Assembly: GCF_900110535.1 (NCBI RefSeq)
Contig: NZ_FOJA01000001.1
Span: 310,001-374,000 of the forward strand
Direction: 5' to 3'
Length of the DNA: 64,000 nt
From: Halobacterium jilantaiense
Lineage (GTDB): Archaea; Halobacteriota; Halobacteria; Halobacteriales; Halobacteriaceae
Below are positions 23,346-25,936 of the stretch, one piece after another; within the stretch, counting starts at the first letter, position 1; the number at the start of each line of letters is the position of its first letter. The notes under the pieces were generated by a model. That model was not told where the DNA came from. It worked only from the letters and a program-made list of their open reading frames with translations, and did no database searches. Made by a program: the position numbers and the translations under genes.

Positions 23346-23359
23346 TTAGGCTCGCCTAA
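23346..23359. promoter_or_regulatory. DtxR/SirR-type metal-repressor box (perfect palindrome)
   Basis: TTAGGCTCGCCTAA is a perfect 14-base inverted repeat that matches the style of DtxR/IdeR-family iron boxes, which haloarchaea also use with Idr regulators. It lies 11 bases ahead of the ATG at 23371 and covers the place where the TATA box and transcription start should be, so bound repressor would silence the two-gene operon. Seen directly; the regulator is inferred. Confidence 0.6.
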
Positions 23360-23370
23360 GCCGCGGGTAG

Positions 23371-23889
23371 ATGGAGCTGACGCGCCGCGACGTGCTGGCC
23401 GCGCTCGCCGCCGGTGGTGCGGCCGCTGGTGCCGGTGTCTCGCTGTCCAGTGGCCCCGGCGAGGGCCCGGTCGGCGACCACGAGATCGACACGCTCGTCG
23501 CCGTCGCCCGCGTCGTCTACCCGACCGAGGTCGCCGGCGTCGAGTCGTTCGTCCGACAGTACAGCGTCGAGCGCGCCCGCGACCGACCCGAGTACGCAGC
23601 GGGCGTGGCGGACGCCGTCGCCGTCCTCGACGAGTACAGTCGGACGTGGTCTGACGCCGACTTCGCCGACCTCGACACCGAGCGCGCGGACCGCACGCTC
23701 TCGGGGTTCGAGGTCGACACTGCCGACCCCGACCCGGACGGCAGTGACCGCGAGCGCGTCCGGTACTACCTCGTGAACGAACTGCTGTACGCGCTGTTCT
23801 CGACGCCGACCGGCGGCAGACTGGCGGGCATCGAGAACCCGCAGGGCCACCCCGGCGGCAGCGCCTCCTACCAGCGGGGGCCCGAATGA
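23371..23889 (+). CDS. Gluconate 2-dehydrogenase subunit 3 family protein (Tat-exported)
   Basis: A 172-residue small subunit of a membrane-associated flavin dehydrogenase. It begins MELTRRDVLAALAAGGAAAG, a twin-arginine signal, and has IDTLVAVARVVYPTEVAGVE, RVRYYLVNELLYALFSTPTG and a C-terminal NPQGHPGGSASYQRGPE, typical of the gluconate_2-dh3 family. The GMC flavoprotein starts in its stop codon (ATGA). Presumably the small subunit carries the flavin subunit to the outer face by Tat co-export. A metal-repressor-type box precedes it. Confidence 0.85.
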   Translation: MELTRRDVLAALAAGGAAAGAGVSLSSGPGEGPVGDHEIDTLVAVARVVYPTEVAGVESFVRQYSVERARDRPEYAAGVADAVAVLDEYSRTWSDADFADLDTERADRTLSGFEVDTADPDPDGSDRERVRYYLVNELLYALFSTPTGGRLAGIENPQGHPGGSASYQRGPE

Positions 23890-25484
23890 ACCGCCAGCCC
23901 TCGGAGCGCGTCGACGTCTGCATCGTCGGTGCGGGCCCCGCCGGCGGACTGATGGCGCACAGGCTCGCCAGCCGCGGCCACGACGTGGTCGTGCTGGAAG
24001 CGGGCCCGCGGTTCGACGCCGACCGCGACGACCGCGAGCGTCGGATGGAGCGCTCGATTCGGCCCGCCCACGGCCCGAACTCGGTGTGGGGGATGGGCGG
24101 CGACCGCGACGCTTACGCGTCGACCGGCGAGCGTCACTACCCCCTGAACGCGGCCCGCGTGAAGGGCGTCGGCGGGTCGACGCTCCACTGGCAGGGGATG
24201 GTGATGCGGCTCCACGAGCGGGACTTCCGGCTCGAATCGGCGGCCGGCGTCGGTTCGGATTGGCCCATCGGCTACGGGGACCTGCAGTCCTACTACGCCG
24301 ACGCCGAAGACGAACTCGGGGTGGCGGGGGCCAGCGACAACCCCTTCGCGCCGCCCCGCGAGCAGCCCCACCCGCAGCCGGCGTTCGAGCCGAGCTACTC
24401 CGACTCGCTGTTCGCCGACGCCTGCGAGGACCTCGGAATTTCGACGCACTCCGTGCCGAACGCCAGGCTGTCTGCGGGCCGCGAGGACCGCAGCGCGTGC
24501 GTCGGCTACGGCACCTGCCAGCCGGTCTGTCCGTCGGGCGCGAAGTACGACGCGACGATCCACGTCGAGCGCGCCGAGGACGCCGGGGCGCGAGTCCTCG
24601 ACCGAGCGCCCGTGCAGCGCCTCGTTCACGGCGACGCGGGTGACCGCGTGACGGCTGCCGTCTACGCCACGCCGGACGGCGACGAGCACCGCCAGGAAGC
24701 CCGCGAGTTCGTGCTCGCGGCGGGCGGCGTGGAGAACCCCCGGCTGCTCCTGCTCTCGGAGAGCGAGCAGTACCCCGACGGCCTCGCGAACTCCTCGGGA
24801 CTCGTGGGGCGGTTCTTCCACGACCACCTGTTCGCGGGCGTCGGCGGCACACTCGACGAGCCGACCCGCCAGAACCACGTGGGCTTCAACACGACCGAGA
24901 GCCACCAGTTCTACGACCAGCCGGCGGACGGCTCGCGCGGAGCCATCAAACTGGAGTTCCTGAACTACGCCGGCCCGAGCCCCGTCGAGATGGCGCTCGG
25001 TGGCGAGGACTGGGGGGACGCGATGCTCGACCGGATTCGGGACGACTACGGAACGCACGTCGCAGTCGGCGCGCTCGTCGAGCAGCAGCCCCGGGCGGAG
25101 AACCGGGTTCGGCTCCACCCCGAGCGCACCGACGACCACGGCAACCCCGTGCCGGACGTGGTGTGGTCGCTGTCCGACTACGAGCGGCGGGCCATCGAGC
25201 GCGCGAACGAGATTCAGCGTTCGATTCTCGGCGAACTCGGCGCGGACGTCGAGTGGACCGTCGGCCCCGAGAACACGGGCCCGGCGTACCACCACATGGG
25301 CACGACCCGGATGGGCGACGACCCCGAGTCGAGCGTGGTGGACGCAGAGCTCCGGACCCACGACCTCGGGAACCTCACCGTCGCGTCGTCGAGTGTCTTC
25401 CCGACGGGCGGCGCGATGAACCCGACGCTCACCATCGCGGCGCTCGCGCTGAAGGCCGCCGACCACGTCGACGACCGGCTCTGA
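23886..25484 (+). CDS. GMC family oxidoreductase (flavin subunit of a sugar/alcohol dehydrogenase)
   Basis: A 532-residue FAD enzyme. It has the dinucleotide motif CIVGAGPAGGLMAHRLASRG at the start, VGGSTLHWQGMVMR, a possible cluster-binding CVGYGTCQPVCPSGAKYDAT, GGVENPRLLLLS, the active-site HHMGTTRMGDDP and a C-terminal FPTGGAMNPTLTIAALALKA. No signal peptide is seen; the partner subunit at 23371 carries the Tat signal. The substrate is probably a sugar or polyol, but sequence does not settle it. Confidence 0.9.
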   Translation: MNRQPSERVDVCIVGAGPAGGLMAHRLASRGHDVVVLEAGPRFDADRDDRERRMERSIRPAHGPNSVWGMGGDRDAYASTGERHYPLNAARVKGVGGSTLHWQGMVMRLHERDFRLESAAGVGSDWPIGYGDLQSYYADAEDELGVAGASDNPFAPPREQPHPQPAFEPSYSDSLFADACEDLGISTHSVPNARLSAGREDRSACVGYGTCQPVCPSGAKYDATIHVERAEDAGARVLDRAPVQRLVHGDAGDRVTAAVYATPDGDEHRQEAREFVLAAGGVENPRLLLLSESEQYPDGLANSSGLVGRFFHDHLFAGVGGTLDEPTRQNHVGFNTTESHQFYDQPADGSRGAIKLEFLNYAGPSPVEMALGGEDWGDAMLDRIRDDYGTHVAVGALVEQQPRAENRVRLHPERTDDHGNPVPDVVWSLSDYERRAIERANEIQRSILGELGADVEWTVGPENTGPAYHHMGTTRMGDDPESSVVDAELRTHDLGNLTVASSSVFPTGGAMNPTLTIAALALKAADHVDDRL

Positions 25485-25501: not shown

Positions 25502-25936
25502 TCAGAACTGGAGGTGGCTCGTCGAACTCGAGCCGTCGTCGTCCCCGTCGTCGTTCGGGAGGCCGTCGTAGAGGTACCGGACGTCGTCGTCGACAAGGTA
25601 CACCTGCCCGTCCTCGACGTCGACGTCCACCGAGGGCAGCGTCGTGTCCGCGGCGTCCCCGTTGTCGCAGTGCCCCGAACACGTGTCGAACATCGACCCG
25701 TGTTTCGGGCAGACGACACCGCCCTCGCGCGTAACGGCACCGACGTCCTCACGGTAGAGTCGCTGTGCCTCGTGCGTGCAGCGGTTCACCCATGCCTGCA
25801 CTGGCGGCCGGTCGTCGTCCTCGCAGGGCACGAGGAAGTAGCTCGCCGTGTCGTCGTGTTCGTCCCGCACGGTGAACGCCCACGCGCCCTCCTCGGTGAC
25901 GGTGTCGACACTCGTCAGTCGGTAGCGGTCGGCCAT
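25502..25936 (-). CDS. Rieske [2Fe-2S] ferredoxin-type protein
   Basis: A 144-residue cytoplasmic protein with the two Rieske cluster motifs: CTH near residue 70 (VNRCTHEAQRLY) and CPKHG near residue 94 (GVVCPKHGSMFDTCSGHC). The following CSGHC adds extra Cys/His not needed for the cluster. It probably transfers electrons to an oxygenase or reductase; no partner is adjacent except the convergent GMC gene. Confidence 0.88.
   Translation of the reverse strand: MADRYRLTSVDTVTEEGAWAFTVRDEHDDTASYFLVPCEDDDRPPVQAWVNRCTHEAQRLYREDVGAVTREGGVVCPKHGSMFDTCSGHCDNGDAADTTLPSVDVDVEDGQVYLVDDDVRYLYDGLPNDDGDDDGSSSTSHLQF

Follow-up and report, generated by a model that had tools for sequence, protein, structure and literature searches.

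An iron-type operator box at the promoter of a predicted Tat-exported flavoprotein dehydrogenase operon in haloarchaea

We identified a DtxR/IdeR-type operator box in front of a two-gene operon of Halobacterium jilantaiense that encodes a GMC-family flavoprotein and its small partner subunit. The same box marks iron-uptake and Fe-S genes elsewhere in the genome, and it is kept at the orthologous promoters of other haloarchaea. The reading that best accommodates these observations, to which we assign a probability of about 0.6, is that the operon encodes a surface dehydrogenase which is induced by iron starvation and serves ferric uptake.

The operator box and the genes it marks

The stretch of DNA under study, hereafter the window, comprises 64,000 nucleotides of contig NZ_FOJA01000001.1 (positions 310,001 to 374,000). 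Within it, TTAGGCTCGCCTAA at positions 23346-23359 matches the 14-bp IdeR/DtxR consensus TTAGGNNNNCCTAA, a form that has been proposed from binding and structural work as the single-dimer IdeR consensus (PMC8464063). The original prediction had recognized a box in the style of DtxR and IdeR at the promoter of the subunit 3/GMC pair, and both points are borne out: the consensus is matched, the same box marks iron-uptake and Fe-S genes in the genome, and the box lies directly 5' of the subunit-3 start codon, beginning 25 nt before the ATG at 23371 and ending 11 nt short of it. Its description as a perfect palindrome is accurate for 12 of the 14 bases, which form two perfect 6-bp inverted repeats (TTAGGC/GCCTAA), and fails at the TC centre that they flank, which is not palindromic.

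Across the 2.95 Mb genome TTAGGN4CCTAA occurs 12 times, compared with two sites for the reversed control and 0.79 expected from base composition. Nearly all 12 boxes are found at the starts of iron genes. The genome search for further copies, proposed together with the original prediction, thus returned a ferric-binding lipoprotein (SBP; 38 of the 38 PDB matches listed for it are iron-binding proteins), several Peripla_BP_2 Tat lipoproteins (siderophore-type binding proteins) and sufC, with the box 17 nt before its ATG. The other boxed genes are an RGP-like gene with two boxes in front, a gene for a DUF5059 lipoprotein that has a plastocyanin-like copper domain at its end, and that of a winged-helix regulator; a further box separates a Peripla_BP_2 gene from a FecCD-like permease, the family of the latter being read from its sequence. 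Nine gene starts were measured in the genome, and their boxes begin 17-31 nt upstream of the start codon. It was found in all 26 genomes of the family and is commoner than the reversed control in 25 of them. In our view the box very probably serves an iron regulon as its operator, a type of box and regulon that is already known. In Haloferax, the main text of an iron-starvation study states a ferR signal for all fhu operons and a rise of transporters under iron starvation (PMC11349517).

The genome holds four matches over the PF01325 cut-off for DtxR-family regulators, and two of these genes belong to the suf region (956 and 963 kb). The original prediction had named iron or manganese as the signal; iron-type control stood, while manganese did not, the company of boxed genes being iron genes. 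Manganese control was set aside, since we saw no Mn transporter next to any of the 12 boxes. Two of the DtxR-family regulators resemble MntR models, with scores below the cut-offs.

Some loci deserve separate mention. One exact box (L012:1501-1514) has no clear target; a cob(I)alamin adenosyltransferase-like ORF lies on its upstream side and a small ORF on the other. At locus L005, the box at 1501-1514 precedes the winged-helix regulator (1532-2395, HVO_A0261_N/FilR1-like), which sits beside a boxed Peripla_BP_2 gene and is possibly a second-layer iron regulator. At locus L103 (2422-3114, 9163-9600, 9641-13806), two DtxR-family genes are found near a rubrerythrin/ferritin-like gene and sufDBC.

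The operon and its predicted products

Table 1. Operator, genes and predicted functional residues of the operon (window coordinates).
Feature	Position	Strand	Remarks
DtxR/IdeR-type operator TTAGGCTCGCCTAA	23346..23359	.	Spans -25 to -12, counted from the operon's ATG; consensus TTAGGNNNNCCTAA
Gluconate_2-dh3 family small subunit (subunit 3), putative Tat hitchhiker, 172 aa	23371..23889	+	PF13618, 27.3 bits (cut-off 23.4)
Tat signal region MELTRRDVLAALAAGGAAAGAGVSLSSGPG	23371..23460	+	TIGR01409
GMC-family FAD dehydrogenase, catalytic subunit, 532 aa	23886..25484	+	PF00732, PF05199
C205-x5-C211-x3-C215, predicted 3Fe-4S ligands	24498..24530	+	Align with Cys212, Cys218 and Cys222 of B. cepacia FAD-GDH
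Predicted catalytic pair His469 (25290-25292) and Asn512 (25419-25421)	25290..25421	+	Equivalent to His476/Asn519 of B. cepacia FAD-GDH

The closest structures to the flavoprotein in the PDB are those of the catalytic subunits in Burkholderia FAD glucose dehydrogenase (8hdd/6a2u, E=1.6e-91) and in fructose dehydrogenase (about 1e-79). The enzyme is kin to dehydrogenases, and not to oxidases as had been suggested. That its segment CVGYGTCQPVC (residues 205-215) could hold a metal cluster was well anticipated: the three cysteines align with those that bind the 3Fe-4S cluster in the crystal structure of the B. cepacia enzyme (PMC6719666), and the C-x5-C-x3-C motif is present in 80/80 orthologues. 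The predicted catalytic pair H469/N512 is invariant in a 30-sequence alignment.

The subunit-3 and GMC genes overlap by 4 nt. Export of the dehydrogenase through Tat had been proposed, and the operon does carry a Tat signal, whose RRD is invariant in 14 aligned orthologues; the signal lies on subunit 3, and there is none on the flavoprotein, which has no signal peptide of its own and whose FAD-binding motif starts from about residue 8. By analogy with bacterial hitchhiker subunits, subunit 3 probably carries the flavoprotein out. A profile search of the PDB with subunit 3 gave no match, the solved hitchhiker subunit included, and its AlphaFold model (pLDDT 76.8, 14 sequences) had no Foldseek match under E 0.001 and VIA-align Z scores of up to 3.2. 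That the modelled subunit matched no solved fold is a counterpoint to our preferred reading. Some true subunit-3 genes (Halobonum, Halorientalis) escape PF13618 and were found by protein search instead. Judging from sequence, the product of the operon is very likely an exported 3Fe-4S flavoprotein dehydrogenase.

The operon and its neighbourhood contain no cytochrome c subunit, and a profile search with PF13442, one c-type family, gave no match in the genome of the window and one in the six genomes searched. Another electron acceptor can be proposed: the box-controlled DUF5059 Tat lipoprotein (813 aa), with its C-terminal plastocyanin-like copper domain, is a candidate. Its gene lies on C1 at about 1233805-1236246 (L104:4806-7247), and in Halobonum (L134) a DUF5059-plastocyanin homologue with its own box adjoins the GMC/ferric cluster. 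Directly downstream of the GMC gene in the window (25502-25936, minus strand) is a convergent, boxless gene for a Rieske-type 2Fe-2S protein; in H. salinarum DSM 3754 (L021:5147-6403) a TnpB-like ORF is inserted between these two genes, which are adjacent in the window.

The missing cytochrome subunit also bears on the possibility that the enzyme acts as a surface ferric reductase, in which sugar electrons would pass through the 3Fe-4S cluster of the flavoprotein to ferric chelates and free iron from its ligands. Ferricyanide is a classical acceptor for this class of FAD dehydrogenases. The partner transporter, being FbpABC-like, has a binding protein, matched in the PDB by iron-binding proteins, of the kind that takes Fe(III) and not Fe(II), and this counts against ferric reduction. 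In the bacterial homologue the cluster does sit at the protein surface, from where it transfers electrons to an outside partner (PMC6719666). On balance, we regard a ferric reductase as unlikely.

Conservation and relocation of the boxed operon

Our orthologue set consisted of 80 haloarchaeal loci encoding the GMC flavoprotein. The promoter box is exact in 71 of them and carries one mismatch in six (77/80 within one) and two mismatches in one; none was found at the remaining two, one of which is cut short by a contig end. The reversed control had 0 matches in 600 kb. Absence of the box from orthologous promoters, which would speak against the original prediction, was thus not what we found; the connection between box and operon, described there as unusual, is conserved across haloarchaea and is no local oddity. 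Counted from the start codon, the box mostly begins 21-27 nt upstream, immediately following a TATA-like stretch, and it is there that a repressor would be expected to sit at a leaderless archaeal promoter.

Flavoprotein genes without an adjoining subunit 3 have the box directly before them, and subunit 3 is then found elsewhere in the genome behind a boxless promoter (L024, L025, L035, L069, L071, L085). Hence the control tracks the catalytic subunit. Export at these loci would depend on a subunit outside the same control, and the displaced, boxless subunit 3 of several genomes is a further counterpoint to our preferred reading. A second exact box is located 10-150 nt after the GMC stop codon in 39 of the 80 loci (e.g., L036, L040, L044, L061). 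It mostly precedes a dolichyl-phosphate-hexose transferase gene (NF041391), so this lipid-linked sugar synthase seems to be part of the iron regulon too.

At 44/80 loci the operon lies beside or inside one cluster of ferric ABC transporter and glycosyltransferase genes, which encodes an FbpB-like permease, a ferric-binding SBP, an RGP-like protein, a dolichyl-phosphate-hexose transferase (GT2) and a PMT-type transferase. At 35/80 loci, Halobacterium among them, it is found between genes of housekeeping type, namely FAA hydrolase and HisC/adenylate kinase, and no locus combines the two contexts. The box is exact in 38 of the 44 iron-cluster loci and in 32 of the 35 housekeeping loci. In longer regions from four genera the complete cluster can be seen, and most of its transcription units are preceded by boxes. 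In the genome of the window the same cluster, minus the subunit 3-GMC pair, is located at 461-469.5 kb, and the pair occupies the housekeeping place with its box kept. According to the protein tree the context changed at least three times, two of the changes being forced by well-supported branches. Halobacterium is sister to a clade with the iron-cluster context, and the window flavoprotein, 90% identical to its H. salinarum DSM 3754 counterpart, groups with the Halobacterium sequences. Given these changes and the presence of the box in both contexts, the box remained with the operon when the latter was relocated. Clades vary in how the genes are arranged (GMC followed by RGP-SBP-permease; permease divergent from subunit 3, GT2 being downstream; PMT-type gene upstream), and it is therefore likely that the operon joined the cluster more than once. 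Transfer between lineages could be an added cause of these differences.

Other regulators use short palindromes as well, and the box might be the site of one without a metal signal, or a relic, its link to iron being coincidental. A box that is kept in 71/80 promoters, in many families and two unrelated gene contexts, that has no reversed-control sites and that is common to ferric-uptake and suf genes makes such a coincidence extremely improbable.

The genomic contexts also help to weigh the idea that the operon belongs to the regulon for energy. Iron-rich respiratory complexes would be turned down under iron shortage, and extracytoplasmic sugar oxidation would feed the remaining chain through a copper carrier, for which the box-controlled blue-copper lipoprotein is a possible acceptor. 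Halobacterium, however, is not a sugar grower, and by itself this explanation does not account for the adjacency to the ferric cluster in 44/80 loci and in several different arrangements. Precedents do exist: iron-limited Pseudomonas putida secretes 44% of its glucose uptake as gluconate, compared with 2% in replete cells (PMC4767421), a diversion that has been explained as energetically useful (PMC7768705), and the main text of the Haloferax study reports that Nuo subunits and cytochromes drop under iron starvation (PMC11349517). We find an energy substitute improbable, to much the same degree as a ferric reductase.

A possible part in iron acquisition

In our preferred reading, a surface dehydrogenase serving ferric uptake, an Fe-responsive DtxR-family repressor (FerR/Idr/TroR type) would use the box as its operator. 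The box would lie after the TATA element and ahead of the point where a leaderless or short-leader transcript begins, and the metal-loaded repressor would thereby block transcription when iron is plentiful. When iron is short, subunit 3 and the GMC protein would be made alongside the ferric (FbpABC-type) and siderophore-type transporters and the suf operon. Its signal and the example of bacterial hitchhikers suggest that subunit 3 would take the folded FAD/3Fe-4S flavoprotein through Tat and hold it at the outer membrane face. Once outside, the flavoprotein would oxidize a sugar or sugar-like alcohol to aid ferric iron acquisition. That the operon has some role in iron acquisition is, in our view, probable.

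The original prediction saw the purpose of the control in the cluster itself: the enzyme, which very likely does hold a 3Fe-4S cluster as judged from its cysteines, would be made under ample iron supply and spared under shortage. This would need control of the opposite sign to that suggested by the regulon, since the same box, at the same distance, precedes uptake genes expected to be induced by iron starvation, and a position between TATA and start suits repression, not activation. Such matching of enzyme to supply is very unlikely, and the purpose assigned to the cluster was probably wrong, because iron scarcity would lift the repression of an Fe-S enzyme that an Fe-loaded DtxR-type repressor holds off. 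A role in getting iron is therefore a better reason for the control than the cluster. It is nonetheless a counterpoint to our preferred reading that an Fe-S cofactor costs iron just when iron is short.

The chemistry can be sketched more tentatively. A hexose, possibly one that the co-clustered dolichyl-phosphate-hexose synthase and PMT-type transferase display, might be oxidized to an acid or keto sugar, which would serve the co-regulated ferric-binding protein as a weak Fe(III) ligand. In place of cytochrome c, a blue-copper carrier might accept the electrons of the 3Fe-4S cluster, and the box-controlled DUF5059-plastocyanin lipoprotein could be such a carrier. We consider these specifics possible and no likelier than that. 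More doubtful still is a complete haloarchaeal iron-acquisition module, which would be a previously undescribed one. There, an Fe-repressed RGP-like protein, dolichyl-phosphate-hexose synthase and PMT-type transferase would display or export the hexose; the Fe-repressed Tat-exported FAD/3Fe-4S dehydrogenase would make from it, by oxidation, a sugar acid or keto sugar that binds Fe(III), or would reduce Fe(III) at its expense; and the adjoining FbpABC-type transporter would import the iron, the electrons leaving through the blue-copper lipoprotein and not through cytochrome c.

We found nothing on this enzyme in the haloarchaeal iron and GMC literature, the main text of the Haloferax iron-starvation proteome (PMC11349517) names no GMC protein, and we found no literature report of the dehydrogenase as an iron-regulon member, which Leyn and Rodionov (2015), Schmid (2011) and Martinez-Pastor (2017/2024) may already list. 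Subject to such an earlier listing, an exported 3Fe-4S sugar dehydrogenase that belongs to an iron regulon and is repeatedly paired with a ferric uptake/glycosyltransferase cluster appears to be new in the literature found. Iron-uptake routes are poorly understood in many haloarchaea, the model Halobacterium salinarum included. The operator and the repeated physical link tie an orphan exported redox enzyme and glycosyltransferases to ferric uptake, and they turn a GMC oxidoreductase of unknown role into a question that is testable in genetically tractable strains. They point to an unrecognized enzymatic step in haloarchaeal iron acquisition. If true, this would be an unusual case of a biosensor-class dehydrogenase working in iron supply, without a cytochrome.

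Compared with the DET-type FAD-GDH of Burkholderia cepacia (6a2u, 8grj, 8hdd) and fructose dehydrogenase (7w2j), the flavoprotein has the same GMC fold family over its whole length, with the predicted 3Fe-4S ligands, the His/Asn pair and a Tat-signal partner subunit in common. It differs from these bacterial enzymes in being haloarchaeal, in having no cytochrome c subunit nearby and in its control by an iron-type box; moreover, subunit 3 has no detectable similarity to the solved bacterial hitchhiker subunit. Gluconate 2-dehydrogenase complexes likewise combine a small Gluconate_2-dh3 subunit with a GMC partner, although here the small-subunit match is weak and the cytochrome subunit is absent. 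The transporter that is neighbouring or co-boxed resembles FbpABC/HitABC in its ferric-binding-protein-like SBP, its fused two-domain permease and its PotA/ferric-type ATPase, whereas we know of no sugar dehydrogenase or glycosyltransferases in the bacterial operons. Finally, the same TTAGGNNNNCCTAA of the IdeR/DtxR operator and the haloarchaeal FerR/Idr/TroR iron regulon stands at ferric/siderophore-type transporter and suf promoters; the literature we found describes uptake genes as members of that regulon, and here a dehydrogenase operon carries the box as well.
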